Assembly: GCA_023512255.1 (NCBI GenBank)
Contig: JAILZY010000056.1
Location: 1 to 23,393 of the forward strand
Reading direction: 5' to 3'
Length of the DNA: 23,393 nt
From: a bacterium
Lineage (GTDB): Bacteria > SZUA-182 > DTGQ01
The notes beneath the pieces were generated by a model. The model had not been told where the DNA came from. It saw only the letters and a program-made list of their open reading frames with translations, and did no database searches. Both the position numbers and the translations under genes were made by a program. Below are positions 3,701 to 22,752 of the stretch, one piece after another; position 1 is the first letter of the stretch; every line of letters starts with the position of its first letter.

Positions 3701-4035
3701 ATTGGCACTGGCGTGTAGGCTTGAGTAAACAGAACCCCTGTCTGGGCAAGGCGGTCGATATTCGGGGTCTTCACCTCACGGTAGCCGTAGCAGCCAAGAT
3801 GATCGGCCCGCAGGGTGTCGATGGTGATCAAAAGCACATTAGGGCTTCTGATCACCTCTTGCCGATTTATGCTATCCGCCGCCGCTGGCCTTTGGGCCAG
3901 CCTAACTTTTCGGCCACAGCCTGCTGTAATCAGGCCGATTGCCGTCAGGCTGATGATGATGCTGATGAGCCATGAGCACACGGCCACCGCCACCACCGAG
4001 GCTGATTTTCTGATCCGGTCGATTAGGCTCATCAC
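754..4035 (-). CDS. sulfatase/alkaline-phosphatase-fold lipoprotein with TPR array
   Basis: Predicted lipoprotein of 1093 residues: hydrophobic residues 11-39 and lipobox ITAGC with Cys40. Residues about 66-410 are a type I sulfatase-like domain of the alkaline phosphatase superfamily, with metal-site Asp73 in TIDTLRADH, Asp288-His289 in ADHGEGLGEH and His301. The position normally held by the formylglycine Cys/Ser is Thr113 (TLPSH), so classical sulfatase maturation cannot apply. A phosphodiesterase or phosphotransferase role, as in Thr-nucleophile members, is more likely. Residues about 495-1085 are roughly 15 TPR units for protein binding, interrupted near 575-595 by a Ser/Gly/Asp-rich insert with repeated SSVG. 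It is a tandem paralogue of the upstream gene. The start is GTG at 4035, or ATG at 4032 overlapping the upstream TGA by one base; the two genes are probably co-translated. The substrate is unknown. Confidence 0.93.
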   Translation of the reverse strand: MMSLIDRIRKSASVVAVAVCSWLISIIISLTAIGLITAGCGRKVRLAQRPAAADSINRQEVIRSPNVLLITIDTLRADHLGCYGYREVKTPNIDRLAQTGVLFTQAYTPVPITLPSHATIMTGQYPLQTRVRDNGTFRLPNESTTLAEILKQHGYRSAAFVSAYVLDSRYGLDQGFDLYDDTLDQQPAAGRQISFLDSERRAEQVTRSALSWFDLNKFELNKSWPFFVWVHYFDPHASYHPPSPFAEQYAGHLYDGEIAYTDHWVGALLEHMEGLGLIDNTLVVLTADHGEGLGEHQEKTHAIFIYDTTLHIPLIMRHPRLIPPGRTISNLVRTLDIMPTILSLIGVQTPALSACSGVDLVSLIQGSAAKQQQLQLFCETLYPQLNHGWSPLEGIRTEGWKYIRAPKPELYNLAEDPSEVNNLWTKQPEEVIRQWANRLDELKKQLSSQTLGRGSVRLTLDFQARQRLQSLGYISWPHRSGESPLPDPKDMVAVQGEIDLAASWVNDGQYEQARQILAKIAGQNPDDLFVRFLLGQVYLSLKEWDLAREEFLAVIAKSQPASAPSSVGVGSSVGPDSDNDPDNMASAGYADAKVFLGIVYLEQGEYEKAIRELTETLKTDADQYQVFYNLGLAYSRLGQLDQALAWFERALSLKPNQPDVQNNRGVILARQGRIREAIEAYSQAVRLDEKNPKPYQNLASLYQQQGDWPRAREIMDRALAHNPNSPDLYSFKAYLATQAGEYKEAGSILERALAHAPHHAGLHTTCGLLYLKQQQEEGARLEFERAIECDPNFADAYYHLGLLFEQDWQSSKDPALARRAEECYQKLIQIAPSYHRQAHLQLASLLCRLGKPQQAIGIYQKLLERGPNDLELRLNLGLAYGQSGQTDEAIAEYQKILKLDPKNAEAWFNLGVALMHKGNLGQAQEAYQQAIRLRPKYSEASLNLGIIYMRQGLADAAQKEWEKILGYEPRNAKAHCNLGNLALSQRDFTRAENEYRQALQTDPNSPETHFGLAAACINLGKEAEAVKEWQETVRLSPNNLEARINLAVAYINRKNLELARNMLSQVLQLEPGLAAAHQLLEKIRELEKGKAKK

Positions 4036-6917
4036 TTTTTGCCCTTGGCCTCAACTACCTTATCGAGGAGCATCTGGGCATCGATATAGCTTGGCTGCAA
4101 TTGAATCGCCTTTTGCAAAACCTCAATGGCCTGATCGATCTCTCCCTTGAGGAAATAGCAATAACCCAGGCCATAATATGCTAGATGACTTTGGGGATAA
4201 AGCCTGACCGCCTCCTGATAATAGCTGATAGCCTGGTCGTACTTGGCCAGGTTAGCGTATAGGATAGCCAGATTGATCAAGGCTTCCAGACAGGTGGGGG
4301 CAATTTCCAGCCCCTTTTTATACTCCTGCTCGGCCTGGTCCAAGAGCCCTTGGGCAAAATAGGTCATGCCAAGATTGACATGCACCTGAAGATTATTTGG
4401 ACTCAGGCTTTCTGCCGCCAGATAACTCTGAAGAGCTAGGTCGTATTTCCCTTGCGTATAGTAGGCGACGCCGAGGTTAATGGCTGCTTCGACATTCCGG
4501 GGGTCGAGCTGAAGGGCTTTTTGGTATTCGGCTATGCATTCATCTATCTTTTGCTGATTGAAGTAGGCTATGCCAAGGTTGACATGGCAAGACGCGTTAG
4601 ATGGATTGAGACGAAGCGCCTCTTGGTATTCCTTGATTGATGAATCTAGCTCTCCTAGACGAAAATAGGCGATCCCAAGGTTATAGTGAGCTTCGAACGA
4701 GTTTGGATCAAGAGCCAGAGTCTTTTGAAATTGCGGAACAGCCTCGGCGAACTTTCCGCTTCGCACATAGAGGGACCCCAGGCAGTTATAGATCTTGGAT
4801 ATATTAGGATTGATCTTTTGCGCCTCTTCGAGCTCTCTCAATGCCTCCTCATATCTTTCCTTGGCGATGTAGGCAGAGGCAAGGTTAATGCGGCCTTCGA
4901 TGTGTTTTGGATTCAGCTTCAGCAGTCCTTGGAATTTTTCGATAGCCTGGTCAAACTCACCCAGGCTGATTAAGACACTGCCTAGGTTGTTATAGGCATC
5001 AATATATTGAGGGTTCATCTGGTGGGCTTTTTCAAGATATTCCTTGGCTTTCTGATAATCTCCCCAGGCCAGATAGACGCTGCCGATGTTATTGTATGCC
5101 TTATGGTTTTTCGGATTCATGCGCAATGACTGCTCAAAGTATTTAAGCGCCTGATCATACTCTTTCATAGCAAAGTAGACCACGCCCATATTCTCAACCG
5201 ACTCGGTATAGTCAGGATTTAGCTCAAGGGCCTTGCGAAATTGCTCCAAGGCCTTATCATACTGGCCGAGTCGGTTATAGACCGTGCCAAGATCATTGTA
5301 GGCGCTGACATAGCGGGGATCAAGCCGCAGGGTCTCTTCAAACTCCTTGATGGCTAGGTCCGTCTTGCCGATCTGATCGTAGATATAGCCTAGGACAAAA
5401 TGGGTAAATACATCATTGGGATTGACCTTCAACACGGCCAGAAACTGCTCGATAGCCTTATCGGTATCCCCCTGGCTAAAATAGTACGTGCCCATGTTTA
5501 GATAGTCAAGGGTGCCGATCATATCCTTGGGATCAGGATAGAGACCCGAGGTCTCATTTTCCGCTTTTTCATGCACGGTGGCTACATATCCAAGACTCCG
5601 AAGACGCTGGGCCGTCTCCTGGTCCATGACCATTTTCTTTGACTCCACCTTGCCGCGGGCGATTCTCCGCTTTAGAGCTTCCATCTGTTTATCAAGCTCT
5701 TCAGCCTTCTGCCGGTGGCTGGGATAGAGATTTTTCACTTGTCCCCGATCCTCAATCATATTGTATAGTTCGGGCTTTGGGGCCCGGATGTAAACCCACT
5801 CCTTGGTCCGCAAGCCCTCAAGCGGGCTCCAGCCGTGGTTGTAGAGTGGATAGTAGGTTTCGCAGAAAAACTCTTCCCGTAAGGGTTTATTTTCCTTGCC
5901 GGTCATAAGCCCCATCAGGCTCTTTCCATGAATGTCAATTTCCTTTTTCACTCCCGCAAGCTCAAGAACTGTTGGGAAAATATCAAGTAGGGTTACTTCT
6001 TGGGAAATTTCTACATTCTGGGGAATTAGCCCTGGATGGCGGAAAATTAGCGGCACTCGCAGCGTGGAATCATAAATAAAGATGGCGTGGGTCTTTTCGT
6101 TATGCTCCCCAAGTCCCTCTCCGTGATCAGCGGTCAGGATAAGCAGGGTTTGATCCCAGATATTCATCTCCTTCAGGCAGGAAATCAGCTTTCCCAGCAT
6201 CTGGTCGGTATAGGCGATTTCTCCATCGTAAAGATTATCTTTGTATTTAGTCGCAAAGGGCTGGGGAGGCTCATAGGGGGCATGGGGATCAAAACAGTGC
6301 ACCCAGAGGAAGAAGGGCTTGTTGCGCCCGTTGGTCCTTAGCCACTTTTCAGCCCCTGAGACTACATCTTCGGCTTTTCGCTCATTGTAGAGCAGAAGCG
6401 TCGCCTCCTGGTCCTTGTTCATGTAGTCATCAAAGGTATCAAAACCTTGATCTAATCCGAACCGGCGGTCAAGGACAAAGGAGCCGACAAAGGCGGCTGT
6501 CTGATAGCCTCGCTCTTTGAGCACCTCGGCCAGGGTTACCAGCTCAGGGCCAGCCACGAAAGTTCCATTATTGCGCACCCCGTGCGAGAGAGGGTAAAGC
6601 CCGGTCATGATTGACAGATGAGAGGGCAAGGTAACCGGAGTGGGTGTATAGCAGTGAGAGAAAAGGGCACCTTCTCTGGCTACTTGGTCGATTACGGGTG
6701 TCTGAATCTCTTTGTAGCCGTAGCAGCCAAGATGATCAGCCCGCAGGGTATCAATACTAATTAAGAGAATGTTGAAATTTGGTACTTTGGCCTGTCTCGA
6801 TAGGCTGATATTGTGGCATCCGGACAGCAATATTAAAAAACCAAGAAAACCAAAGAGCACTACCTTAGTTTTAATTATACCTTTGACTATCTTCCTGCAT
6901 TGAAGAGTCTCTATCAT
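4032..6917 (-). CDS. sulfatase/alkaline-phosphatase-fold lipoprotein with TPR array (paralogue)
   Basis: A 961-residue protein with hydrophobic segment 17-33 and lipobox LLSGC (Cys34), so probably membrane-tethered outside the cytoplasm. The enzyme domain, about 48-400, has Asp56 in SIDTLRADH, an intact ADHGEGLGEH metal motif and the YDGEIAYTD segment. Thr96 in TLPSH takes the place of the Cys/Ser that becomes formylglycine in true sulfatases. From about 460 to the end there are some 14 consecutive 34-residue TPR repeats. Architecture and motifs match the gene ending at 754, which points to local duplication. The start ATG at 6917 follows a GAGGG ribosome site at 6-base spacing and is well supported. 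It is likely the first gene of a two-gene operon. Substrate and partner proteins cannot be read from the sequence. Confidence 0.94.
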   Translation of the reverse strand: MIETLQCRKIVKGIIKTKVVLFGFLGFLILLSGCHNISLSRQAKVPNFNILLISIDTLRADHLGCYGYKEIQTPVIDQVAREGALFSHCYTPTPVTLPSHLSIMTGLYPLSHGVRNNGTFVAGPELVTLAEVLKERGYQTAAFVGSFVLDRRFGLDQGFDTFDDYMNKDQEATLLLYNERKAEDVVSGAEKWLRTNGRNKPFFLWVHCFDPHAPYEPPQPFATKYKDNLYDGEIAYTDQMLGKLISCLKEMNIWDQTLLILTADHGEGLGEHNEKTHAIFIYDSTLRVPLIFRHPGLIPQNVEISQEVTLLDIFPTVLELAGVKKEIDIHGKSLMGLMTGKENKPLREEFFCETYYPLYNHGWSPLEGLRTKEWVYIRAPKPELYNMIEDRGQVKNLYPSHRQKAEELDKQMEALKRRIARGKVESKKMVMDQETAQRLRSLGYVATVHEKAENETSGLYPDPKDMIGTLDYLNMGTYYFSQGDTDKAIEQFLAVLKVNPNDVFTHFVLGYIYDQIGKTDLAIKEFEETLRLDPRYVSAYNDLGTVYNRLGQYDKALEQFRKALELNPDYTESVENMGVVYFAMKEYDQALKYFEQSLRMNPKNHKAYNNIGSVYLAWGDYQKAKEYLEKAHQMNPQYIDAYNNLGSVLISLGEFDQAIEKFQGLLKLNPKHIEGRINLASAYIAKERYEEALRELEEAQKINPNISKIYNCLGSLYVRSGKFAEAVPQFQKTLALDPNSFEAHYNLGIAYFRLGELDSSIKEYQEALRLNPSNASCHVNLGIAYFNQQKIDECIAEYQKALQLDPRNVEAAINLGVAYYTQGKYDLALQSYLAAESLSPNNLQVHVNLGMTYFAQGLLDQAEQEYKKGLEIAPTCLEALINLAILYANLAKYDQAISYYQEAVRLYPQSHLAYYGLGYCYFLKGEIDQAIEVLQKAIQLQPSYIDAQMLLDKVVEAKGKK

Positions 6918-7071
6918 GATAACCCTCGCTAAGGTCCTATTGGATAAAGTAGACAGATATAACTGAAGATATAATAAAATAAAAATATAAAATTAAAATG
7001 TAAAAGAGAGAAAGGTGTCCTCCTAATTTAGTAAGAAGCAAAATCTATGCCAACCAAGGAGAAAAATCGCT

Positions 7072-7106
7072 AGGAGAAGTTAAAGTTAAACCAGGAGAAA
7101 GTTAAA
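7072..7106 (-). repeat. direct repeat spanning the 3' end of the YchF-like gene
   Basis: AGGAGAAGTTAAA (7072-7084) is repeated as AGGAGAAAGTTAAA (7093-7106), one extra A. The second copy covers the stop codon (7102-7104) of the minus-strand gene. A related AAGGAGAAAAA lies at about 7056. On + these look like ribosome sites, but no gene follows on that strand. Confidence 0.55.
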
Positions 7107-8142
7107 TATTAAACCTAAAATTAATGATATCACCATCCTTTACCACATAATCCTTCCCCTCTAATCGCATGAGCCCCCTTTTTTTGACCTCGGCCATGTT
7201 GCTGTGGCAGTTGATAAAATCCTCATACGAAACAACCTCAGCCCTGATGAAGCCCCTCTCGATGTCAGAATGGATCTTACCGGCTGCTTTCACTGCTGTC
7301 GTGCCTCGGGGTATGGTCCAGGAGCGGACCTCATCTTTGCCGACGGTAAGAAAACTGATCAGGTTCATCATGTCGTAGCTCTCCCTGATGAATTTGTCCC
7401 TAGCTGATTCCGAAAGCCCCATCTCCCGCAGGAAATCGGCCTGCTCAGTGGGAGACAGGTGGCTGATTTCTTCCTCCAAGGAGCCGGCAATCTGCATGAG
7501 CCTAAGACCGTGAGCCTGGCAATACTCCTGGATGGAGGCGTAAAGATCAGAGGCAAACCCTGATTCCGGAATGTTTATGACCACCATGGTCGGCTTGATG
7601 CTCAGGAAGGCAAAACCAGCAATTTGCTTGCGCTCGGCCTCGTCTAAGTCAAGAAGGCGAAGCGGCTTTTCTGCATCAAGACAAGCATGGACCTTGTCCA
7701 TCGTCTGAATCAGCTTCTGATCCCTGCGCTCCTTTCGCAGTGAGGCCAGGGATTTATCGACTATGGCAAAATCCGAAAAAAGCAACTCACTCTCTAGCCC
7801 GGCTACATCTTCCAGAGGGTGAAAATCTCCCTTCCCGTCATCGAATCCCTTGATCACCAAGACCAGAGCATCCATTACTTTGAGTTTCTCTAAGACCTTG
7901 GCTGAAAATTTTTCCTCCTCAGCAGGCATGGCTATATCAGCAAAGGTGATTTCGGCAGGTGTGGTTTTTTTCGGCTCAAAAACACGGCTCAAGACCTCAA
8001 GCCGCTCATCCGGGACCTTGATTAGCCCCAGATTGATATCCTGCTGCGAGGAGTATCCCCCTGTTTTGGCAGCCAGCCCAGTCAGTGAATTAAAAATCGT
8101 TGTCTTGCCACTCCCCTTAAGCCCCACAATCGCCACTTTCAT
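7102..8142 (-). CDS. divergent YchF/Obg-like GTPase with C-terminal TGS (DUF933) domain
   Basis: A 346-residue cytosolic P-loop protein. The P-loop GLKGSGKT is at 7-14. The atypical NxxE specificity motif of YchF appears as NIPE at 190-193. The C-terminal DUF933/TGS domain (about 262-345) is close to YchF: WTIPRGTTAVKAAGKIHSD, ERGFIRAEVVSYEDFI and LEGKDYVVKDGDIINFRF. YchF is a ribosome-associated ATPase/GTPase with stress-related roles. It departs from ordinary YchF (about 363 residues) in two ways. The usual GLPNVGKS P-loop is changed. The DxxG switch II segment, normally DIAGLVKGAS, reads DIAMPAEEE, with no Gly and about a dozen residues fewer. It may be a specialised paralogue rather than YchF itself. 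Start ATG at 8142 has a GGAG ribosome site about 10 bases upstream. It stands alone, with spacers on both sides. Confidence 0.9.
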   Translation of the reverse strand: MKVAIVGLKGSGKTTIFNSLTGLAAKTGGYSSQQDINLGLIKVPDERLEVLSRVFEPKKTTPAEITFADIAMPAEEEKFSAKVLEKLKVMDALVLVIKGFDDGKGDFHPLEDVAGLESELLFSDFAIVDKSLASLRKERRDQKLIQTMDKVHACLDAEKPLRLLDLDEAERKQIAGFAFLSIKPTMVVINIPESGFASDLYASIQEYCQAHGLRLMQIAGSLEEEISHLSPTEQADFLREMGLSESARDKFIRESYDMMNLISFLTVGKDEVRSWTIPRGTTAVKAAGKIHSDIERGFIRAEVVSYEDFINCHSNMAEVKKRGLMRLEGKDYVVKDGDIINFRFNI

Positions 8143-8537
8143 GATAGCTTATCTCCATAAATTCAAACTAATCAAGCTAATTATAGTATTAAATCATAGT
8201 GTTCAACCATAAAGATTTATAACTTGCCATCACTGGTCAAGACAATGGATAACTGCAATAATTATCCAAACCATAATATGAGGAATCCCCATAAAAGATG
8301 AGAAACATCTTGTCGCACAGCCACCAGGATTTTTAGCAAGGTGTGCGATACAAAGTGCGATAAGTGGTAACCTAGTTAGTATATCTAAAATAGTAGAATA
8401 AAATCAATCTTTGATTGTTCTTTGTTTGTTTGTCGGTCGGAATAGCCAAAGATTTCACCACAGTTCATCTAGAAAAGATTAAAATAAAGTATAAAGATCC
8501 TAAAATAAAACATAAATAAAATAAAGCATAAGGAGAG

Positions 8538-8573
8538 AGGCCAGCCCCAAAAGGAGGTGAAAGGGGCTGGCCT
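8538..8573. other. strong hairpin with a perfect Shine-Dalgarno sequence in its loop
   Basis: AGGCCAGCCCC (8538-8548) pairs perfectly with GGGGCTGGCCT (8563-8573). The 14-base loop contains AAGGAGGTGA on +, fully complementary to the usual 16S rRNA tail, and TCACCTCCTT on minus, a copy of that tail. There is no U-tract on either side, so an ordinary intrinsic terminator is not supported. It lies downstream of the minus-strand PAS gene and could stabilise that mRNA's 3' end. Confidence 0.7.
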
Positions 8574-8606
8574 TGAAGGAAGAAAAGGGATGATGAGGAA
8601 ATCAGG

Positions 8607-8665
8607 AGCGATTGATTGCGACTTATACCAGCGATTTACTTACCAGCGATTGATTGCAACTTATA
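8607..8665 (+). repeat. 21-bp direct repeat, two copies
   Basis: The unit AGCGATTGATTGCGACTTATA at 8607-8627 recurs at 8645-8665 with one mismatch (offset 38). A partial copy, TACCAGCGATT, is at 8626-8636 and again at 8641-8651. The function is unknown. Confidence 0.7.
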
Positions 8666-8712
8666 TATACCTTTTCTTTTTTCAATATCATCGTATAGTG
8701 ATGTGGTCGGGG

Positions 8713-8767
8713 TTAAATCTAAACTTCAGGGTTTGGGGGTTAAGCCTATTAAACCTAAACTTCAGGG
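8713..8767 (-). repeat. 19-bp repeat of the 3' end of the PAS gene
   Basis: TTAAATCTAAACTTCAGGG (8713-8731) and TTAAACCTAAACTTCAGGG (8749-8767) differ at one base, offset 36. The second copy contains the last codons and stop (8755-8757) of the minus-strand PAS gene, so the gene's terminal segment is duplicated just past its stop. Confidence 0.7.
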
Positions 8768-9261
8768 GTAAACAGGACCAATCCCTTAGCAAAACGATTA
8801 TTCTCATCGACAATAGATCTAATATCCATATTTACCCTGACCTTTTGGCCATTTTTCTTGTGGATGTAGCTTGTGAGCTTGACCTGGGAATCCTTTTTCA
8901 AGGGTGGAGGCAGCAATAGCCCTGTTCCCTGGCAATCCTCATAAGAGAGCAGAGTAAAGCAATCGGAGTGAATGAGCTCCTCTTTACTATAGCCGGTAAT
9001 AGATTCCGCTATGGGATTGGCATAGGCGATGGAGCAGTCTTTGTTAATGACCAGTAAGCCACTGGTGATATATTCATAGAGAGCTAAATTGATCCTTTTT
9101 TTCCTGGCTAGCTCCTGCTCATTCTGCCTGAGTTTATATTTTAAGTCCTTGCAGGTCTTCTCCAGCCTTTTTTTTGTATCCCATAGATCCTTGTTGGCTC
9201 TAATCATGGTTTGCATCATTCTTTTTTGCTTACGCACCTTTTCAATTTTCTCTGCCTGCAT
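8755..9261 (-). CDS. small stand-alone PAS-domain protein with N-terminal coiled coil
   Basis: A soluble protein of 168 residues. Residues 1-60 are Lys/Glu/Arg-rich and predicted helical, probably a coiled coil for dimer formation or partner docking. Residues about 58-166 form a PAS domain: GLLVINKDCSIAYANPIAE, ITGYSKEELI and a C-terminal strand ending in FTPEV. No kinase, GGDEF, HTH or receiver domain is present, so it is likely an adaptor or sensor that acts through another protein. A clear AAAGGAG ribosome site sits 7 bases before the ATG at 9261, which fixes the start. It is divergent from the large PAS sensor at 9887 across a 625-base spacer and may work with it. The ligand cannot be told from the sequence. 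Confidence 0.85.
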   Translation of the reverse strand: MQAEKIEKVRKQKRMMQTMIRANKDLWDTKKRLEKTCKDLKYKLRQNEQELARKKRINLALYEYITSGLLVINKDCSIAYANPIAESITGYSKEELIHSDCFTLLSYEDCQGTGLLLPPPLKKDSQVKLTSYIHKKNGQKVRVNMDIRSIVDENNRFAKGLVLFTPEV

Positions 9262-9886
9262 TTTTTGACTCCTTTTTGGCTTTTGGCTGAAAATTTTATT
9301 TTTAAGATCAAAGCAGATATTTCGATATGAAAAAAGTCATTGCCTTAAAAGAATCCCAATTGATAATTCGCCTCGTTATTTTTCCGAAGCTTGATCAGGA
9401 ATAACTCAATGAGAACAATTTATTTTATAGCAAATTGAATGCCAGATAATAACTGTTTGATTTTTCTATTTTTATCTTCTTGAAAAACATCCTAGGTGAC
9501 AAATTTGTCGAGCTGATCAACCAGCTAGGATCAGTACCGGATCATGCGCAGCCATTAATATCCTGTATTTTAATGAGTTGTCCTTAAAATCTAAAGGCCG
9601 GCCAGTCTCGACAAATATGTAGGAGGAAGGAAACCCTTTCGGGCGGCAAGCAAGAAAGGCAAGGGAATAGAAGGACTTATAGAGGGGTTTTAAGGAGATA
9701 GAGGGATTTTTATTAAGCATCCGAGCTAGAAATCAGCCGACAGGTGAAAATATTTAATCACCATACGGCAAGATCAAGATGCATAAGATCAAGATACAAC
9801 AGATAAAGAAGCAAGATAAATACGATGGAATAGAAAGTAAAACAAGATAAATATATAAAAAGCAAGATAAATAATGGAATAGACAT
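9262..9886. other. 625-base divergent spacer between two PAS-protein genes
   Basis: Must hold the promoters for both flanking genes, but no convincing -35/-10 pair was found. A 67-codon minus-strand frame (9517-9720) crosses its middle; it lacks a ribosome site and any recognisable motif. The right end (9760-9886) is very A-rich, with repeated CAAGATAAATA elements. GGCCGGCC, a perfect palindrome, lies near 9597-9604. Confidence 0.5.
9810..9873 (+). repeat. three CAAGATAAATA direct repeats upstream of the sensor gene
   Basis: CAAGATAAATA occurs at 9812-9822, 9843-9853 and 9863-9873. The first and third copies are each preceded by AG and followed within a few bases by TGGAATAGA. They lie just upstream of the ATG at 9887, where a promoter or regulator site is expected. 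Spacing of 31 and 20 bases is near three and two helical turns, which would suit a DNA-binding protein, but simple local duplication explains them too. Confidence 0.6.
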
Positions 9887-13328: not shown

Positions 13329-15233
13329 ATGGATTACACAGCCCTCCTTAACCTAAAAAAGGAACCGTTTTCGATTTCGCCTGATCCAAGCTTTTTTTAC
13401 TACTCCAGGGATTACCAGGAATGCTTGCAACAGATGGAATTGTCTATCCGACTGCGCCGGGGATTAAATATCATCCTTGGTGATGTCGGAACCGGCAAGA
13501 CAACCTTAAGTCGCGCCCTGATCCAGTTATTTCAGGGATATGAAGAGTTTAGGTTCCATTTGATACTCGATCCCTCATTTAATTCCGAATATGAGTTTCT
13601 CCTCGCTCTGGTAAAAATTTTCAATATCCCGGTCCCGGATGAAAAAACCAGCCTAGCCTTCAAGGAAGCCATACGAACTAACCTCCTAAAAGAGGGGCTG
13701 GATAGAAAGCGAGTCGTGGTCCTGATCATTGATGAGATCCAGAAGATGGACTATCCCTTTTTGGAGCTATTGCGGGATTTTTTGAACTTTGAAACCAATG
13801 AGCATAAGCTTTTGCAACTTGTGCTTCTTGGGCAGATGGAATTTCTGGATAAGATTCGGGAGAAGAAAAACTTCATGGATCGGGTCAATATGCTGTATTT
13901 CCTAAAGCCCTTAAGTCCTGACGACACCAGGGAGATGATCGAGTTTCGGCTCCGAAAGGCCGGCTATTTTTCCCGCCAGCCTCTTTTTACCCGTGAGGCA
14001 TATCGTAAGATCTACATCTATAGCCAGGGATACCCCAGGAAAATCGTCAACATCTGCCACCATTGCCTGCTTCTTATGCTAATTAGAAAGCAGGAGATAG
14101 TGGATCGGCAGATTGTCGAGCTGGTGGTCAAATCCCTTTTCCCAGAGGCAGCCTTTCCAGAGCGTAAGAAATTTAATCTCTCACTACCAGATGGGTGGTT
14201 TAAATGGGTTAAGCAGTCTCAATGGGCCAGGAGAGGAGCAGCTACAGTGGCTGTGCTCATTCTCCTTATCCTAGGATGCTTCATGATTTTTCGACACCGC
14301 AGCGTATCCGATCAAGACAGCCGCAGCTCATCTGCCCCAAAGACAGCTCATGCGCTGAGAAATAACCAACGGCTCACCCCCTCTTCTTCACCCTTGAAGC
14401 AGCAGCTCTCTACTTCCCCCCATGCCCCGCAGACAGCCAAGGCTGTGCATCAAAGCCCGAGGCCCGCAGCTATCCCTTCATCCTCTGCCGGGCAGATAGC
14501 CGACTCTGCGCTCTCAACAGCAGGAGCTTTGACTAACACCGCCGCTTTCGATCACCGGACAGCTTTGGCAACTCATCAGGCCATAGGATCAGACGCACAA
14601 TCAAATACTAAGGACAGATCCCAAGACGCACAATTAGATTTTCAAGCTGGCCGCCAAGCGGCAGTCGCCGCCGACAGCGATCTTTCCCCCCAAAAGGCTC
14701 CGATAAGGAAAATAGAGACTAGAGTCTCTCCTGCTGATGATGATCAGCAGAGTAGGCCGCAGGATTCCACTCTCGGAGAGACCCGGGGAGGATATCGGGT
14801 AGTGGTGGCTGAAAAGGGTGATTTTATCTCTAGGATGGCTATTAAACTTTATGGCTGTGAGAAAGTTTCAGATGAGCTTTTGGCAGCCATCCGAAAGGCC
14901 AATCCTCATATTGCAAATTTGAATTTCATAGAACCTGGCCAGAAGGTTTACTTTCCAGATCTTACTAAGAAAGAGGAGGGGGGCTCCTCTTGCATCTATG
15001 GTGTGCAAGTAGGTTATTTTCCCACTGCGGCCGCGGCTCAAGATTGTCTGAAGAAACTCTCCTCAATCGGCAGTCGGATCTATATTGAGCGGGACACTCT
15101 CTCCGGACGGGAAGAGCAATACGCGGTCATTATCGGCCCTTTTGCTGATCTAGCCCGTGCCTGGGAGACTATAGACAGGCTCCAGCAGAAGCACTTTCGC
15201 ACCTGCCGGGTAGTGGTCATTAGTCAAGACTAA
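13329..15233 (+). CDS. ExeA/GspA-family AAA ATPase with LysM and SPOR domains
   Basis: 634 residues. The N-terminal ATPase (about 1-270) opens with the family signature (LNLKKEPFSISPDP) and has Walker A GDVGTGKT (51-58) and Walker B VVLIIDE (130-136). A transmembrane segment is at 304-321. A long Ser/Ala/Gln-rich linker (325-485) leads to a LysM-like domain (about 488-543, YRVVVAEKGDFISRMAIKLYG) and a SPOR-type repeat (about 555-631, YGVQVGYFPTAAAAQDCL). ExeA works with ExeB to let secretin assembly pass the peptidoglycan; LysM and SPOR both bind cell-wall glycan, which fits. Topology is ATPase inside, glycan-binding part in the periplasm. The start at the promoter-proximal ATG agrees with the family N-terminus. 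The PilN- and PilO-like genes follow with gaps of 8 and 80 bases. Confidence 0.93.
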   Translation: MDYTALLNLKKEPFSISPDPSFFYYSRDYQECLQQMELSIRLRRGLNIILGDVGTGKTTLSRALIQLFQGYEEFRFHLILDPSFNSEYEFLLALVKIFNIPVPDEKTSLAFKEAIRTNLLKEGLDRKRVVVLIIDEIQKMDYPFLELLRDFLNFETNEHKLLQLVLLGQMEFLDKIREKKNFMDRVNMLYFLKPLSPDDTREMIEFRLRKAGYFSRQPLFTREAYRKIYIYSQGYPRKIVNICHHCLLLMLIRKQEIVDRQIVELVVKSLFPEAAFPERKKFNLSLPDGWFKWVKQSQWARRGAATVAVLILLILGCFMIFRHRSVSDQDSRSSSAPKTAHALRNNQRLTPSSSPLKQQLSTSPHAPQTAKAVHQSPRPAAIPSSSAGQIADSALSTAGALTNTAAFDHRTALATHQAIGSDAQSNTKDRSQDAQLDFQAGRQAAVAADSDLSPQKAPIRKIETRVSPADDDQQSRPQDSTLGETRGGYRVVVAEKGDFISRMAIKLYGCEKVSDELLAAIRKANPHIANLNFIEPGQKVYFPDLTKKEEGGSSCIYGVQVGYFPTAAAAQDCLKKLSSIGSRIYIERDTLSGREEQYAVIIGPFADLARAWETIDRLQQKHFRTCRVVVISQD

Positions 15234-15241
15234 GAGATAAG

Positions 15242-15931
15242 ATGAAACAGGAGGAAAACCTTACCGCTACAAATCAACTGATCAGATTCATTCGCGGTGG
15301 GGTTAGCTGTGAGGAATTTTATAGCCAATATCCTGAGGTAAAATCCGAGGAAAAACCGGGGAGGAGGCTACTCATGATGGGATTTCTGGCTCTGGCCGGA
15401 GTCGGGCTCATCCTGGTAGGGTATGTGCTGCTTTCTTGGCAGCTTAGGGCAGATAGGGCCCGGCTTGAGCTATTGTCCAAAGAGCTTGAGCAGACCGCAG
15501 CGCAGCTCTCATCGCCCCAGGCTCTTGAGGCCAGAAAGTCTTTCTGGAGCGGACAAGAGGCTCTAGTTAGAGACCTTTTGGGTGAGAAACTTTCTCTAAG
15601 TTGCCTGTTGAAGGAGCTGAGCCACCTTAGTCCGGCCACGGTTTTTTTCAACCGAATTTCACTCCAGAGCGCATCCTCTGCTGCCATTCAGTTAGGTACA
15701 AGCTCAAAGATAGGTGCAAGCTCACAGACAGAGGACAGCAGGAGGAAGTTAGTGCTGGAAGGTATGAGCGTACAAGAGAGCGCCTCTTATCCTGGTGGAG
15801 ATTTCCCTGCATTTTTGGCCCGGCTCAATCAATCCTCCTTTTTTCGGCATGTGCAGGTCAACTATCAGCGGGAAGCGGATACCGATTATGGTCGAGGATT
15901 AAGTTTTAGCCTGATCGCTGATTTGAGATAG
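15242..15931 (+). CDS. PilN/GspL-C-like inner-membrane alignment protein
   Basis: 229 residues: a short cytoplasmic N-terminus, one transmembrane segment (about 43-66), a coiled-coil stretch (67-95) and a periplasmic domain. This matches PilN of type IV pili and the C-terminal part of GspL. LKELSHLSPATVFFNRISL and a later VLEGMSVQ segment resemble the PilN ferredoxin-like fold. Position between an ExeA-type ATPase and a PilO-like protein supports the call. It would pair with the PilO-like protein to link the pilus/secretion motor to the outer-membrane secretin. No PilM-like actin-fold gene is present in the window, and the N-terminus is not the usual PilM-binding INLLP motif. An 18-bp in-frame tandem repeat lies at 15693-15728. 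Confidence 0.75.
   Translation: MKQEENLTATNQLIRFIRGGVSCEEFYSQYPEVKSEEKPGRRLLMMGFLALAGVGLILVGYVLLSWQLRADRARLELLSKELEQTAAQLSSPQALEARKSFWSGQEALVRDLLGEKLSLSCLLKELSHLSPATVFFNRISLQSASSAAIQLGTSSKIGASSQTEDSRRKLVLEGMSVQESASYPGGDFPAFLARLNQSSFFRHVQVNYQREADTDYGRGLSFSLIADLR
15693..15728 (+). repeat. in-frame 18-bp tandem repeat
   Basis: TAGGTACAAGCTCAAAGA (15693-15710) is followed directly by TAGGTGCAAGCTCACAGA (15711-15728), two mismatches. It encodes the Gly/Ser-rich G(T/A)SS loop in the periplasmic domain of the PilN-like protein. Confidence 0.75.
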
Positions 15932-15954
15932 TGATCTAAAAAGAGATGCTCATG

Positions 15955-16005
15955 GATGCCTGAGGTATCTGTATCTCCCTAGTGATGCCTGAGGTATCTC
16001 CCTAG
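15955..16005 (+). repeat. direct repeat between pilN-like and pilO-like genes
   Basis: GATGCCTGAGGTATCT occurs at 15955-15970 and 15984-15999, and each is followed by CCCTAG (15977-15982 directly after a further GTATCT, and 16000-16005). It lies just before the first possible ATG of the next gene. Confidence 0.75.
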
Positions 16006-16011
16006 GGATCC

Positions 16012-17118
16012 ATGAGAACGGTATTATTCGACAGCCGAGTTCCTCACGCAAATTTTCCCCAAAAACATGGCTTAAAAGATATGAAAAAGGCGCGAATTTT
16101 CATTTTTATATTTCCTGTCCTGGTCATACTTCTCTCCTGGCTTTTGCTCTATCCCTCTATAGCCGAGATCCTCAAGGTCAGAGAAAAAATTCGCCTGACC
16201 CGCAGCCAGATTGAAAGATTTGGCCATCTGCGAACTCAATCGCAGGAGATAGAGAGGAAGATAGCTTATTTTCAGAAGGACATCCAGCATCTGATTCGCT
16301 ATCTTCCCGGCCCGGGATCTATCGAGACTACCTTGAAGCAGCTTCACTCTTGGGGAACAGAATATGGATTGAACATGCTAAAGGTGAGCTCTGATTATTC
16401 CTTCCGGCTGGATGAGGCGGCAGATCAATCATTATATGCCAATGATCGGGTTTTTTGCCTGGAGGCTGTTCCAGTTCAACTTCAGGCAGAAGGGCAGCTT
16501 CCCGATATTTGCAACTACCTTGAGTGGCTGGAGGAGCTACCCTATTTTCTGAGTATTGATCAGGCGGAGATTCGCAAGCTTGAGGAGGATAGCTCAGCGG
16601 TGTTTCCCAGAGTGCGGCTAGCTATGCTCATCAAGATAGTTGGCCTATCACGTCAGGAGAAAGAGGACACTGGCCGTATCCTGAGAGCGGTGGACCTCTA
16701 CCAGCCCGCAAATCTTTCTTCTGCTCTGATTGCTGCCCAGAAAAACGTTCGGTTGACTGCCTTGGAAAAAGACCTCTTTTTTCCCGAGGAGGTCTCAGAG
16801 GCCGAAGTCGATGAGGAGCTGGGGAAGAGTGAGGAAGAGGCGGCAGTGAGCGGAGAGGATGATCCTCCTATCAGGAAGAAGAGCCGCACCTTGGCGGAAG
16901 AGGGAAGAAGCCCCTTGCAGGATGAGGGGAGAGTTTCGGTAAGAGATTTTGACCTTAACGGAATCTTGAGCTGTCAGGGGGAATATATAGCCCTGATCAA
17001 CAACAGAAGGGTGAAAAAAGGAGAAACTATAGCTGGAATGGAGGTGATGTGGATCACTAAAGATAGTATCTGCCTGGCAAAAGGTGATGAGAAATTTATT
17101 CTACGCTTGAATCAATAG
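16012..17118 (+). CDS. PilO-like alignment protein with PilP/GspC-like C-terminal domain
   Basis: 368 residues from ATG 16012; ATG 16081 (residue 24, MKKARIF) is an equally likely start because the first 23 residues look atypical and neither site has a strong ribosome site. Transmembrane segment about 28-47, coiled coil 50-95, then a PilO-like periplasmic domain (about 100-215, with LHSWGTEYGLNMLKVSSDY and a GQLPDICNYLEWLEELPYFL-type helix). An acidic low-complexity linker (255-308) follows. The last 55 residues (LNGILSCQGEYIALINNRRVKKGETIAG) look like the beta domain of PilP/GspC that contacts the secretin. Joining PilO and PilP functions in one chain would explain the absence of a separate pilP. 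Its partner is the PilN-like protein upstream. The next gene starts 28 bases later. Confidence 0.78.
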   Translation: MRTVLFDSRVPHANFPQKHGLKDMKKARIFIFIFPVLVILLSWLLLYPSIAEILKVREKIRLTRSQIERFGHLRTQSQEIERKIAYFQKDIQHLIRYLPGPGSIETTLKQLHSWGTEYGLNMLKVSSDYSFRLDEAADQSLYANDRVFCLEAVPVQLQAEGQLPDICNYLEWLEELPYFLSIDQAEIRKLEEDSSAVFPRVRLAMLIKIVGLSRQEKEDTGRILRAVDLYQPANLSSALIAAQKNVRLTALEKDLFFPEEVSEAEVDEELGKSEEEAAVSGEDDPPIRKKSRTLAEEGRSPLQDEGRVSVRDFDLNGILSCQGEYIALINNRRVKKGETIAGMEVMWITKDSICLAKGDEKFILRLNQ

Positions 17119-17146: not shown

Positions 17147-20100
17147 ATGAGCCCAGCAGCTAAGGGGAAGAATCATCAGGCCTTGGCCGATGATGCGCCA
17201 TTGGAAGATGAGATAGAAGAGGCGGAAGAGGGAGTTTCGATTAACTATATAATTTTTACCCTCATTGTTGGCTTATTGCTTTTGCTTAACTGGTTGGGGA
17301 TCTTTAAAACCGTACTGGGAATTGACACGGCCATCATTCTTACCCTGGTCGGCGGATATAAAATCTTTTTAGGTGCGCTGGAAAGCCTTTTTAGACGCAA
17401 GATCTCGGTTGATCTAGCTATTGCCCTGGCTGCTATCGCCGCCTTGTCCATAAAACAGTATCTGGCTGCGGCTGAGGTTATGTTCATTATGCTGGTAGGC
17501 GAGGCTCTTGAGTCTTTCGCTGTTGACCGGACGAGGGGAGCCATCAAGAAGCTGATTGATCTTTCGCCCAAAAAGGCCAGGGTGGTCAGAGAAGGGAAAG
17601 AGCAGAAGATTGAGGTTGAGAGGCTGGTGGCTGGCGATCGGGTTATTGTCAAGCCGGGGGAGAGAATCCCGGTTGATGGGGAGGTTTTGAGCGGGTACTC
17701 TTCGGTTGATCAGAGCACCATTACCGGTGAGTCTATACCGGTAGAAAAGAGCGCCGGCAGCAAGGTGTATTCGGGCACCATCAATCAGCTTGGTTCTTTG
17801 GAAATCAGGGCTGAGAAGGTGGGGGAGGATACCCTTCTGTCCAGGATCATTCACCTGGTGGAAGAGGCCCAGTCGCAGAAGGCTCCTATTCAGAAGGTGG
17901 CTGATCGGTATGCTAAATTCTTTGTTCCTATTATCATCCTGGTAGCTGCCATCTCCTGGCTCATCACCCGCGATCTGGTGCGGTCGGTGTCCATTTTAAT
18001 CATTGCCTGCCCATGTGCTTTGGTACTGGCTACGCCGACGGCTATTTTTGCTGGCATTGGCCGGATGGCCAAAGAGGGTATTCTGGTCAAGGGGGGAGCC
18101 TACCTTGAGGCTATGGGCAGGGTCGGTCTGATCGCTCTTGACAAGACTGGGACCCTGACTCAGGGCAAACCTCGCCTGGTCAGCATCATTCCCTTCCAAG
18201 AGTATTCAGAACAGCAGGTTTTATCTCTTGCGGCTTTGGCTGAGCAGCATTCCGAACACCTTCTGGCTAGGATTGTGGTCGAGGAGGCTAAGAGAAGATC
18301 AGTCGATATCGGCCAGTGCGAGCATTTCCTGGTAAAACCTGGGCTTGGGGTCGAAGCGGTCTACCAGGGGAAGAGGGTGTTTGTGGGTAGTAGGAAACTC
18401 CTTCAGGAGGAGGGGATTGAATTTGATGCGGCGGCGATCAAGGTCTTGGAAGAGGTTGAGCGCAAGGGCCAGACCATAATCCTAATCTCCTGCGAACAGA
18501 AGCTGGCCGGTGCCATTACCATGCAGGATGAGATTCGGCCTGAGGCTATTGAGACCATCCGAAAACTGAAAAAACTGGGTCTCAAGCTTACCCTTCTGAC
18601 TGGAGATAACGAGCTGGTAGCCAAGCAGATAGCCCACCAGGCAGGTATTGATGAGTATGCAGCAAATCTTTTGCCCGACGGCAAAGTGGACAGGATCAGA
18701 AAGTGGCAAGAGGAAGGCTACGTCGTGGCTATGGTCGGGGATGGGATCAATGATGCCCCCTCATTGACCGCGGCCAATGTCGGCATAGCTATGGGTAGCA
18801 TCGGCTCTGATATTGCCATTGATGCCGCGGATATGATCTTTATGGCCGATGATCTGAGCCGCCTTGAGAATGCCGTGGTCATCGGCAGAAAAACAGTCAA
18901 AACTATCAGACAAAATATTATCTTTTTTGCCGTTATCTTCAATACGCTGGCTGTGGTGGCTGCTGCCTGGGCCTCAGCCTGGGTTACGCCGCCAATAGCG
19001 GCTATTGTTCATCAGATTAGCTCCCTTTTGGTGGTGGGAAATTCACTTCGGCTTCTGTCTGGGAAAATAAAAGACATCTTGACTGGCTGGCTGCTTGCTC
19101 TGATCGGATGGTCAAAGCATCTTGTTCATGACCATATTCGCTCTTTATGGGAAAACTACAGAAAGCCGATAGTCAACACTAGCCTGGCTCTGGTGATTGT
19201 GCTCTACCTTTTTTCAGGCCTAACCATGATCGCTCCCTATCAGCGGGGAGTGGTTCAGCGCTTTGGCCGTCTGATCACTGATAATGTGCCGCCTGGCCTC
19301 CATCTTTTCTTCCCCTGGCCGATAGATAAAGTTACCAAGGTTATTCGCTCGGTTGATCGGGTTGAGATTGGATTTCGCCGCAACAAGGATATAGCTAGGC
19401 GAGTGGATCAGAAAACCGGTCAGGTGATCACCACCTATGAGTGGGATATTCAGGACCGCAGCAGCGAGTATCAGAAAAAGGATGACGAGACCTTGGTGTT
19501 TACCGGGGATGAGAATTTCCTTGAGCTAGATCTAGTGGTTCAATATCGGGTTAAGGATCCTTCGGCTTATCTGTTTAAAATCAGGGGACTTCAAGATACC
19601 GAAAATCTGGTGCGGTTCTGTGCTCAGTCAGCAATCAGGGAAATTATTGGCCAAAAAGGGGCTGACCAGATTCTGACCACAGATCGAAGTGAGATTGAAG
19701 CCAGAGTTTCAAAGCTACTTCAGCAGGAATTCGATTCTCTTGATACAGGCCTTTTGGTTACCGGAGCCTATCTGCAGAGCGTGCATCCGCCCATTGAAGT
19801 GGCTGATTCTTTCCGTGCGGTGGTCAATGCCCATGAGGAAAAGAGTATGCTCATCAATCTGGCTGAAGCCTATCATAATGAACAACTGCCACTGGCTCAT
19901 GGCAAGGGGGAGCAGAATATCAGGCTGGCTGAAGCCTATAGGCAGGAGATAGTTAATCGGGCCGAAGGCGAGGGAGAGCGGTTCGTGCGTATGTGCGAAA
20001 ATTATGATCGCTTTCAAGAGGCCACTACCTTAAGGCTCTATCTTGAGACTGTGGAAAGTGTTCTGCCGGGGATGAAAAAATTTATTCTCGATGAGCAGCG

Positions 20101-20212
20101 CAATGGTCGTGAGGAGTTAACAGTGTTTGGTTCTAAAAAGATCGAGACCCTTATGAATAACCTTACCAGGGAATTTTTCCCCCGGGCCAAGCAGCAGAAT
20201 TTGAAGCCGTAA
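17147..20212 (+). CDS. heavy-metal-type P-ATPase fused to an HflK-like SPFH domain
   Basis: A continuous 1021-residue chain. Residues 1-640 are a P1B-type ATPase: eight predicted membrane segments (about 33-50, 58-78, 87-101, 104-124, 255-275, 281-303, 590-610, 613-635). It has TGES 193-196, CPC 288-290, phosphorylated Asp332 in DKTGT, GLG 399-401, TGDN 485-488 and GDGINDAP 531-538. There is no N-terminal metal-binding domain, only an acidic stretch. The usual SEHPL reads SEHLL (369-373), and the last membrane helix has HQISSLLVVGNSLRL, not the zinc-type DxG. Residues 641-675 are an amphipathic linker; 676-696 a ninth membrane segment; 697-1015 an HflK-like SPFH/band 7 region (YQRGVVQRFGRL, PPGLHLFFPWP) with a long helix. 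Even helix count in the ATPase puts the SPFH part in the periplasm, as in HflK. A GAGG ribosome site precedes the ATG. The transported metal is unknown. Confidence 0.94.
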   Translation: MSPAAKGKNHQALADDAPLEDEIEEAEEGVSINYIIFTLIVGLLLLLNWLGIFKTVLGIDTAIILTLVGGYKIFLGALESLFRRKISVDLAIALAAIAALSIKQYLAAAEVMFIMLVGEALESFAVDRTRGAIKKLIDLSPKKARVVREGKEQKIEVERLVAGDRVIVKPGERIPVDGEVLSGYSSVDQSTITGESIPVEKSAGSKVYSGTINQLGSLEIRAEKVGEDTLLSRIIHLVEEAQSQKAPIQKVADRYAKFFVPIIILVAAISWLITRDLVRSVSILIIACPCALVLATPTAIFAGIGRMAKEGILVKGGAYLEAMGRVGLIALDKTGTLTQGKPRLVSIIPFQEYSEQQVLSLAALAEQHSEHLLARIVVEEAKRRSVDIGQCEHFLVKPGLGVEAVYQGKRVFVGSRKLLQEEGIEFDAAAIKVLEEVERKGQTIILISCEQKLAGAITMQDEIRPEAIETIRKLKKLGLKLTLLTGDNELVAKQIAHQAGIDEYAANLLPDGKVDRIRKWQEEGYVVAMVGDGINDAPSLTAANVGIAMGSIGSDIAIDAADMIFMADDLSRLENAVVIGRKTVKTIRQNIIFFAVIFNTLAVVAAAWASAWVTPPIAAIVHQISSLLVVGNSLRLLSGKIKDILTGWLLALIGWSKHLVHDHIRSLWENYRKPIVNTSLALVIVLYLFSGLTMIAPYQRGVVQRFGRLITDNVPPGLHLFFPWPIDKVTKVIRSVDRVEIGFRRNKDIARRVDQKTGQVITTYEWDIQDRSSEYQKKDDETLVFTGDENFLELDLVVQYRVKDPSAYLFKIRGLQDTENLVRFCAQSAIREIIGQKGADQILTTDRSEIEARVSKLLQQEFDSLDTGLLVTGAYLQSVHPPIEVADSFRAVVNAHEEKSMLINLAEAYHNEQLPLAHGKGEQNIRLAEAYRQEIVNRAEGEGERFVRMCENYDRFQEATTLRLYLETVESVLPGMKKFILDEQRNGREELTVFGSKKIETLMNNLTREFFPRAKQQNLKP

Positions 20213-20307
20213 TCTAACCGGGGTATGTGCAAAATCATCCTGAAGATCGTATATAGCAACCTAACTTGACTTGCAGCTCGCCAACTCTCTTTGTAGGGGG
20301 TATGTTG

Positions 20308-21288
20308 ATGGAAAAAGAAACCAAAAAGAAGATCGTTATTTCACTTTTAATTCTTGTAGCCCTAGTTTTGATTTTTTTGAGCATGTTTGTGGTTGATGAA
20401 ACCCAGTACAAGATTGTCACTCTTTTTGGAAAGCCAACCAGAGTGGTTTCAGAGCCAGGGCTATACTTTAAATCGCCCATTCACACCACTATCACCCTGG
20501 ATAAGAGGCTCCTGCTCTATAATCCGGTTCCCAAGGAGTACCTGACGCGAGATAAGAAAAATGTGGTGGTCGATAATTTTGTCTGCTGGAAAATCATTGA
20601 TCCCCTTGATTTTTATGCTACCGTGATGAATGTTCCCAAAGCTGAAACTCACCTCGATGATTTGGTGTATTCTGAAGTTTCAGCTGCCCTTGGCAGATAT
20701 GACCTATCTTCTTTGGTTTCGTCCAAGCCCGGTGAGATGAAGATAGAAGAGATTTTTCAGCAGATCACCGAAAATTGTCGGCGTCGGGCGGCCAGAGACT
20801 ACAGTATGCAAATAGCCAGCGTGAAACTTAAGCAATTGATCCTTCCCCAACAAAACAAGCAGTCTGTTTTTGACCGGATGCGGGCTGAGCGGCAGAGAAT
20901 TGCCAAACAGTATCGGGCTGAGGGGGAAGAGGAGGCCATGAAGATTCGGGCGGCTACTGACAAGGAAACCAAAACAATTCTCTCCGAGGCCTATCGGACA
21001 GCTGAAATTATCAAGGGGGAAGGCGATGCTGAGGCTATCCGGATCTACGGTGAGGCCTATGGGCGAAATATCCGCTTCTATCGGCTCCTTCGGACACTTC
21101 AGGCCTATCAGAAGTTTCTGAACGAGAAAACCACGGTGGTTCTCTCCTCAGGTTCCGAGCTGTTCAAGCTCCTGACCCAGGGGCAGGTAAAGGGTACCAC
21201 TCAGGGCACGAACAATGATAAGAGCATAGCTGGCAAGGCTGCTAAAGCGGCTACCAAAGCAAGTGCAGACAATTTGGCCAGAAAATAG
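20308..21288 (+). CDS. hflC: HflC-like SPFH/band 7 protein
   Basis: 326 residues from ATG 20308, 7 bases after the GGGGG of TAGGGGG; ATG 20302 is possible, and further upstream TTG reading is unlikely. One N-terminal membrane segment (about 9-28), then the SPFH domain (VVDETQYKIVTLFGKPTRVVSEPGLYF is split at residues about 29-55), then the long charged helix rich in RAEGEEEAMKIRAATDKET and GEGDAEAIRIYGEAYGRN, typical of HflC. HflC alternates with HflK in a large periplasmic cage that, in E. coli, encloses the FtsH protease. The last 40 residues are a Thr/Ala/Lys-rich tail. It lies between two HflK-like partners in one direction, 95 bases after the fusion gene and 20 bases before the next. No ftsH is in the window. 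Confidence 0.93.
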   Translation: MEKETKKKIVISLLILVALVLIFLSMFVVDETQYKIVTLFGKPTRVVSEPGLYFKSPIHTTITLDKRLLLYNPVPKEYLTRDKKNVVVDNFVCWKIIDPLDFYATVMNVPKAETHLDDLVYSEVSAALGRYDLSSLVSSKPGEMKIEEIFQQITENCRRRAARDYSMQIASVKLKQLILPQQNKQSVFDRMRAERQRIAKQYRAEGEEEAMKIRAATDKETKTILSEAYRTAEIIKGEGDAEAIRIYGEAYGRNIRFYRLLRTLQAYQKFLNEKTTVVLSSGSELFKLLTQGQVKGTTQGTNNDKSIAGKAAKAATKASADNLARK

Positions 21289-21308: not shown

Positions 21309-22250
21309 ATGAGCAAGGCGAAAACTGTTAGAAGGTGGGCAAAGTGGCTGCTCGGCATAGCTGGACTTGTCTATCTCCTGTCCGGCTTTTATCTTGTATC
21401 AACCAATGAATTGGGTGTGAAGAGGCGTTTTGGCCGGGTAGTCGATGCCAGGGTATCTCCGGGATTGCACTACCGCTGGCCTTATCCAATCGAAAAAGTG
21501 GATAAGATCAAGCCACAGGAAAAGAAGCGGATCAGTGTTGGGTTTGAATTCGCTGACCAGGCCATTGGTCGAGTCTCAAATCCGACTCAAGGAGAATTCC
21601 TGACCGGCGACCGCAATATCATCAAGATGGAAATGGTCCTCCAGTACTCTATTCTAGATCCGGTTAAGTACCTGTTTTCCTTTACTGATCCAGCGGCCAT
21701 AATTAGAGACCTGGCCAAGGCCAGCCTGGCCAAAACTACGGCTCGGATGAACGTGGATGAGGTCCTTGAGGGGAACGGCAAGATAGCTATTCAGAATACG
21801 GTTCTGGCTGACACCCAGGCGCGGCTAGATGAGCTTGGTCAGGGGAGGCGGTGGGTCCAGGTAGCTTCGATTAACCTTCAGAATGTCTTTCCACCTCTTG
21901 AGGTGGCCGACGCCTTCAAGGATGTGGCCGCAGCCAGACAGGACCGTGACCGCTATATCAATGAGGCTGAAGGATACCGCCGGGAGAAAATCCCGCAGAG
22001 TAGGGGAGAGGCTGAGCGGATCCTGCGTGAGGCTGAAAGCTACCGGAATGAGAAAATTAACACAGCCCAGGGAGATGCCCAGCGATTCATCGAAATGTGC
22101 GCCGAGTACGAGGGGAGCGAGCAGGTTACTGCCTCCCGTCTTTATCTTGAAACTATGGAACAGACCATGACCAGGATGCAAAAGGTGGTGGTTGATTCCG
22201 ACAGTCAGACAAAGCCCTTTGATCTCAAAATCATAGACCTTGAAGAATAG
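21309..22250 (+). CDS. hflK: HflK-like SPFH/band 7 protein (second HflK-type gene)
   Basis: 313 residues with one membrane segment (about 12-31) and an HflK-type SPFH domain: STNELGVKRRFGRVVDARVS, PGLHYRWPYPIEKVDKI and a central EFLTGDRNIIKMEMVLQYSI. The C-terminal helix (NEAEGYRREKIPQSRGEAER, ending in a Met-rich stretch) also matches HflK. It lacks the long glycine-rich cytoplasmic N-terminus of E. coli HflK. It is a paralogue of the SPFH half of the fusion gene at 17147 and probably shares the HflC partner. A strong AAGGAGG ribosome site lies before ATG 21309. The final six codons with the stop are duplicated directly after the stop, so stop readthrough would simply repeat the same C-terminus. 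Confidence 0.92.
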   Translation: MSKAKTVRRWAKWLLGIAGLVYLLSGFYLVSTNELGVKRRFGRVVDARVSPGLHYRWPYPIEKVDKIKPQEKKRISVGFEFADQAIGRVSNPTQGEFLTGDRNIIKMEMVLQYSILDPVKYLFSFTDPAAIIRDLAKASLAKTTARMNVDEVLEGNGKIAIQNTVLADTQARLDELGQGRRWVQVASINLQNVFPPLEVADAFKDVAAARQDRDRYINEAEGYRREKIPQSRGEAERILREAESYRNEKINTAQGDAQRFIEMCAEYEGSEQVTASRLYLETMEQTMTRMQKVVVDSDSQTKPFDLKIIDLEE

Positions 22251-22293: not shown

Positions 22294-22752
22294 ATGAACA
22301 ACAAACTCTTTATCTCCATTGTGGTGATAGTTATTCTGATTGGGGTCATGTGGCTTACTGCCCCAAGAGGAGCTAAAGGCCCAGAGAGAGTCGAGGATGT
22401 CATCTGGAAGATGTTTTCCGCCGCCCTAGCTGGAGATACCCAGCAGTATATCGACTGTTTTTCCGGCCCGCCCCGTAATGTGCTGGAAGAAAACCGAAAG
22501 CAGACCACCGAAGCTGCTTTTCAGGACTACATCAGGCGTGATGTCCAGGATATTAAAGCCTTGTCGATCATAAACGGCCAGCAGGAAGATGCCCAGAGGG
22601 CAGTCTTTGAGGTCGAGGCAGTCTATCCCGATCGGAACGAGAATCAAATTTTCTCTCTCCAGAAGATTCAGGGGAAGTGGAAAATCGTGAGCATTTCACG
22701 TCCTGTGATCACCAAACAGCCGATTCCCTATCTGGAACAGGTAGTGAAGTAG
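22294..22752 (+). CDS. membrane-anchored protein with small NTF2-like/DUF4878-type domain
   Basis: 152 residues. One N-terminal membrane segment (about 5-23, LFISIVVIVILIGVMWL) is followed by an extracytoplasmic alpha+beta domain. It starts with a helix carrying the AALAGDTQQYIDCFSG pattern and ends in strands including EVEAVYPDRNENQIFSLQKI and GKWKIVSI. This order (helix with aGD-x-yldc, then a strand ending in W-K-I) is usual in DUF4878/NTF2-like proteins, but the family match is tentative. A GAGGG ribosome site lies 6 bases before the ATG. As the last gene of the SPFH cluster, 43 bases after hflK, and with the same predicted periplasmic side, it may be a cage partner. That is inference from position. 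Confidence 0.8.
   Translation: MNNKLFISIVVIVILIGVMWLTAPRGAKGPERVEDVIWKMFSAALAGDTQQYIDCFSGPPRNVLEENRKQTTEAAFQDYIRRDVQDIKALSIINGQQEDAQRAVFEVEAVYPDRNENQIFSLQKIQGKWKIVSISRPVITKQPIPYLEQVVK

Follow-up and report, generated by a model that had tools for sequence, protein, structure and literature searches.

The stretch of DNA analysed here over its full 23,393 nucleotides (hereafter the window; contig JAILZY010000056.1 of assembly GCA_023512255.1, GTDB lineage SZUA-182; DTGQ01) encodes, in one uninterrupted chain, a heavy-metal P1B ATPase and, C-terminal to it, an HflK-type SPFH domain, within an operon that also encodes an HflC and a second HflK-type protein. Judged by sequence comparison, this fusion belongs to a wider family whose members bear one of three unrelated metal transporters on one and the same putative scaffold subunit, here termed HflK1. 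We consider it fairly probable, at roughly two chances in three, that an old SPFH trio (HflK1, HflC and HflK2) serves transition-metal transporters as a modular platform in the membrane, with the fusion as its pump-bearing subunit. SPFH assemblies and metal pumps are each known, and what appears to be new is a conserved HflK branch joined to three unrelated metal transporters and accompanied by partners of its own; a description of the fusion was not found in the open-access literature, although absence there is not proof of novelty. The features of the window on which the argument relies are the following, all on the plus strand.

17147..20212, plus strand: P1B-ATPase-HflK1 fusion, a single open frame of 1021 aa, kept in relatives
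17147..19066, plus strand: P1B metal ATPase half, residues 1-640 (TIGR01525, hydropathy, motif alignment)
19067..19174, plus strand: linker, residues 641-676, predicted cytoplasmic, evolving fast yet in frame
19175..20209, plus strand: HflK1 half, residues 677-1021 (TIGR01933, Band_7, loop, tree)
20302..21288, plus strand: cassette HflC (TIGR01932, 204 bits), the conserved next gene, with its start at 20302 or 20308
21309..22250, plus strand: HflK2, a second HflK-type SPFH protein of 313 aa (TIGR01933, 222 bits), in a clade of its own
22294..22752, plus strand: small membrane-anchored NTF2/cystatin-like protein (model pLDDT 82, fold matches)

The initial annotation had claimed that a P-type ATPase and an HflK-like SPFH domain, both complete, share one chain, and this is borne out by the 1021-aa frame, which passes two NCBIfam cut-offs: TIGR01525 (heavy-metal P-ATPase) with 614 bits against 346, as a full-length match over residues 88-636, and TIGR01933 (HflK) with 202 bits against 159. 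Pfam places E1-E2_ATPase at residues 139-309 (3.5e-62), HAD hydrolase at 328-543 (8.1e-32) and Band_7 at 694-908 (2.2e-22), and the same search found no HMA domain ahead of the pump. The P1B half displays an acidic N-tail and, by hydropathy, eight predicted helices, and a ninth membrane helix lies beyond these at about residues 678-696, in agreement with the earlier proposal of an SPFH half with its own membrane helix. The catalytic motifs CPC (288-290), DKTGT (332-336), TGDN and GDGINDAP were likewise confirmed, and all four are invariant among the fusions of close relatives. The metal motif CPC lies in M4 of the pump. Its M5 and M6 residues, by which a Cu (P1B-1) or Zn (P1B-2) selectivity subgroup is recognised, are Asn and HQ..SS, respectively, unlike those of Escherichia coli ZntA or CopA. 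The sidedness of P1B ATPases follows an established topology rule, and this usual topology combined with nine helices would place the linker in the cytoplasm and predicts a periplasmic SPFH domain, as in HflK. An AlphaFold model of the whole fusion, built from 5 sequences, was of low confidence (mean pLDDT 51) and was set aside as a basis for structure. Residues 369-373, within the nucleotide-binding domain, read SEHLL in the window and SDHPL in the fusion of Bryobacterales, SEHPL being the usual form of this motif in P1B ATPases.

The fusion is a genuine and conserved gene. Residues 641-676 contain no in-frame ATG, and the sole in-frame TTG of the linker, read by eye, is not preceded by a Shine-Dalgarno-like sequence, in line with the earlier reading of the junction as devoid of start signals. 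It had been allowed that close relatives might always encode the two halves as separate genes; however, the fusion is present in all 5 genomes compared from the window's order, the four relatives displaying 83, 69, 64 (contig-cut) and 55% identity to it, and the one truncated copy is interrupted by the contig end only, its contig beginning inside the gene. Four further genomes of the class, outside this order, do not carry the fusion. Compared with a same-genus relative, dN/dS is 0.085 for the P1B half and 0.084 for the membrane helix plus SPFH half, so both are under purifying selection, whereas the linker is relaxed (0.74) with the frame kept. The relatives and these dN/dS values rule out an artefact or a frameshift as the source of the fusion.

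The fusion opens the operon [P1B-HflK1]-HflC-HflK2-NTF2-like, and an identical four-gene order was found in Bryobacterales (Acidobacteriota, locus L041). Proteins joining a P1B ATPase to HflK, for which a domain search had been suggested, occur in 15 of the 297 Acidobacteriota genomes surveyed, where their frames span 1015-1135 aa. A wider search of 386 genomes, using the junction and the SPFH half as query, revealed that the long N-terminal extensions on HflK proteins of other lineages are CDF transporters or SO_0444-type Cu/Zn efflux permeases. All three kinds of transporter half are recognisable members of their families, assigned by TIGR01525 for P1B, PF01545 for CDF and NF033936 above cut-off (as well as PF03773) for SO_0444, and differ from ordinary members by the HflK1 added at the C-terminus. 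We mapped 45 fusion loci (17 P1B, 16 CDF and 12 SO_0444); HflC and HflK2 directly adjoin the fusion in 43 of them, and all but one of the 17 P1B loci (16) also have the NTF2-like gene in fourth place. The two loci without adjoining HflC and HflK2 are L184, which is truncated at a contig end, and L107, where both are missing; at L107 (contig 10 of genome G373) an SO_0444-HflK fusion stands alone, and a complete cassette (L108) is present in the same genome. Two genomes of the window's order encode a second fusion, of CDF type, in a full cassette (G002) or a contig-cut one (G004). The retention of the same two partner genes across transporter types suggests a dedicated scaffold for metal transport.

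Several candidates were discarded. In several Acidobacteriota, the long frames seen at HflK turned out to be spurious, GC-rich and superimposed on canonical hflKC, and G033, G346, G371 and G246 were rejected as further fusions, their extensions being not real or cut by a contig end. Among the matches listed, none was confirmed as HflK fused to a non-metal domain. A plasmid search found no plasmid-borne P1B-HflK fusion: the best match was a Fusobacteria plasmid on which a P-ATPase gene stands ahead of an SPFH gene that is distinct from it and matches weakly, and the Paracoccus and Persicobacter plasmid matches included no cassette.

Phylogenetic analysis places the three kinds of HflK apart. 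A careful tree was computed from 65 HflK-type sequences (22 HflK1, 25 HflK2, and 18 canonical HflK including that of E. coli). In it, the fused HflK1 sequences fall on one side of a branch with support 91/81, as do HflK2 (95/89) and canonical HflK (96/89) each on their own. Larger quick trees do not recover HflK1 as one clade, so the unity of HflK1 rests on the careful tree together with a loop insert containing Trp766, which is found in 34 of 38 HflK1 sequences, whereas all 41 HflK2 and all 22 canonical HflK lack it; at 91/81, the grouping of HflK1 is moderately supported. The Trp766 codon lies at positions 19442-19444, and this near-invariant residue is common to fusions with all three transporter types. 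The P1B halves of all fusions constitute one clade (SH-aLRT 99), the SO_0444 fusions already form one group, and a single origin per transporter type was not rejected by the AU test (p 0.29 for P1B and 0.11 for CDF). An independent fusion of HflK to each transporter was rejected in view of the HflK1 grouping and the common insert, and the simplest history suggested by the sequences would be one old HflK1 lineage whose transporter has been exchanged.

To our knowledge, the role described for HflK/HflC cages is almost exclusively the regulation of FtsH, and the system of the window shares several traits with the HflK-HflC-FtsH system of E. coli: its SPFH half scores above the HflK cut-off, HflC adjoins it, and it has one membrane helix and a predicted periplasmic domain. 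It differs in bearing a whole transporter at the N-terminus, in having two HflK-type subunits instead of one, and in its separate phylogenetic group with a specific loop insert. Since the HflK1 of the window falls outside the canonical HflK clade, it is to be regarded as HflK-like and not as canonical HflK, which the same genome (G000) encodes as well.

Regarding metals, nine cassette HflCs of Acidobacteriota display His-rich N-tails with 11-15 His, eight P1B fusions carry shorter tails with 5-7 His, and several SO_0444 fusions have His-rich loops; no such tail was found on the window's own proteins. A CDF-HflK1/HflC/HflK2 cassette is located on a conjugative plasmid of Aquibium oceanicum B7, a cultured marine bacterium, near genes for Nramp, a two-component system and a ZntA-like P-ATPase, and a ZIP transporter gene comes after one SO_0444 cassette. 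The annotation of the Aquibium plasmid cassette reads HflK/HflC only, the CDF-HflK fusion (positions 6001-9646 of locus L181, NZ_CP018172.1) being named simply HflK; as the CDF half is dropped in this way, such fusions may be widely hidden in databases. The metal would be one of the Zn/Cd/Cu class, and export appears more likely than import.

In the platform that we propose, HflK1 would be an old paralogue of HflK in which a whole transition-metal transporter has taken the place of the short cytoplasmic N-terminus, the transporter being a P1B ATPase here and, in other lineages, either a CDF protein or a permease of SO_0444 type. The SPFH domain of HflK1 would join HflC and HflK2 in an HflKC-type ring or cage, in the way that SPFH proteins assemble. 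As a transporter would sit at each HflK1 position, every assembly would bear several transporters clustered in one membrane patch, which may concentrate, stabilise or gate them, and the common partners, some of them with His-rich cytoplasmic tails, could capture metal for the pump. The metal-handling membrane microdomain suggested by the initial annotation, taken as such a platform, stands as the best reading, although the HflC and HflK2 partners, the HflK1 subfamily and the fusions with other transporters had been missed. A more elaborate form, which we offer tentatively and regard as doubtful, is a hetero-oligomeric cage with transporters along its rim, moving metal into or out of an enclosed periplasmic chamber and with the P1B, CDF or SO_0444 pump as an exchangeable module; if true, it would represent a protein-walled compartment for metal transport.

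The clustering of P1B ATPases by a scaffold is an established phenomenon in Mycobacterium tuberculosis, where it matters for resistance: in PacL/CtpC effluxosomes, membrane P1B ATPases are clustered by a small scaffold that bears a metal-binding motif, a resemblance to the platform proposed here (PMC9374683, PMC13043812). However, the scaffold there is PacL and not an SPFH protein, pump and scaffold are separate genes, and the foci are reported to be independent of flotillin (PMC9374683, PMC13043812). By family search and reading, the neighbours of the fusion are PilN/PilO-like, SPFH and NTF2-like genes, with no PacL-type scaffold gene among them.

The closest described system, likened by its gene make-up, is PA2434-PA2439 of Pseudomonas aeruginosa, an unfused arrangement that may be a relative. 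It comprises HmtA, called a P-type ATPase importer, and three HflC/HflK-family genes, a znuA mutant starved of zinc shows 5.6-14.4 fold more of its transcripts, and a putative Zur site, though a weak one, has been noted (PMC4542158); its proteins rise upon zinc depletion (PMC11761036). A 2026 study of strain PA14 described an operon of three SPFH genes, PaFlo5-7, with hmtA unmentioned (PMC13086221), and these probably correspond to PA2437-PA2439. As in the window, a metal P-ATPase is encoded with three HflK/HflC-type SPFH proteins, and the P. aeruginosa system is zinc-responsive; pump and SPFH proteins are separate genes there, whereas the window and its relatives have them fused. An overlapping set is found on Rhizobium plasmids in the order HflK-HflC-HflK-P1B, again with tails rich in His, but its proteins are only distantly related to those of the window.

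These unfused arrangements of like make-up render import a serious rival as to direction: an HmtA-like P1B half would take up Zn or Cu under metal starvation, with the SPFH trio aiding uptake. Besides the induction of PA2434-PA2439 by zinc depletion, its importer annotation and its weak putative Zur site, the M5/M6 residues of the fused pump, which match neither ZntA nor CopA, are consistent with this. Nevertheless, P1B ATPases are mostly exporters, the CDF and SO_0444 proteins at the same place on HflK1 belong to efflux families by annotation, and the P1B ATPases of the HmtA-like Rhizobium clusters, taken as a stand-in for HmtA, are distant from the fused clade; on balance we judge import unlikely. 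Another way of reading the SPFH half is that it brings the pump to FtsH or shields it from the protease, so that proteolysis sets the pump level and clustering is secondary. HflK and HflC are indeed FtsH modulators (PMC2636767, PMC13220708), and FtsH genes were found in all 8 carrier genomes tested, with three in the window's genome (above the family cut-off, on contigs 103, 24 and 60). Given that FtsH is near universal, its presence in carriers says little; no ftsH gene lies within the mapped cassettes, HflK1 falls outside the canonical HflK clade and a canonical HflK is also available in the window's genome. We judge FtsH control slightly less probable than import. Lastly, that the fusion merely secures co-expression or stoichiometry, with halves that work as well apart and an SPFH domain that is no scaffold, agrees with the unfused sets of similar make-up on Rhizobium plasmids and, by annotation, in P. 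aeruginosa, but is made very improbable by three transporter families at the same fusion place, the same two partners kept, and purifying selection on both halves.

In several phyla, gene fusion joins this one HflK branch to metal transporters of three kinds. If the modular platform is correct, SPFH assemblies would be tied directly to metal transport, and the idea that transporters are organised by SPFH scaffolds can be put to a clean test, for which the Aquibium oceanicum plasmid offers a tractable example in a cultured bacterium. The same platform may explain why, under zinc scarcity, P. aeruginosa induces its metal P-ATPase and the three SPFH genes jointly.

Some further observations concern the surroundings of the fusion and its distant counterparts. 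Directly ahead of the fusion, and separated from it by a gap of 29 bp, lie genes for an AAA protein that resembles GspA/ExeA and carries a SPOR domain and for two proteins of PilN/PilO type (13329-17118), and a similar AAA/PilN/PilO set lies upstream of the fusion in genomes G001, G002 and G004. In Rhizobium, an HflK-type protein with a long multi-helix N-half (positions 4719-6869 of locus L197 and 4848-6908 of L198) adjoins HflC, another HflK and a P1B ATPase, and the N-half of the L197 copy has no Pfam family match. At the other end of the window, on the minus strand, two tandem large proteins (754-6917) resemble a sulfatase with many TPR repeats, the first of them confirmed by Pfam.
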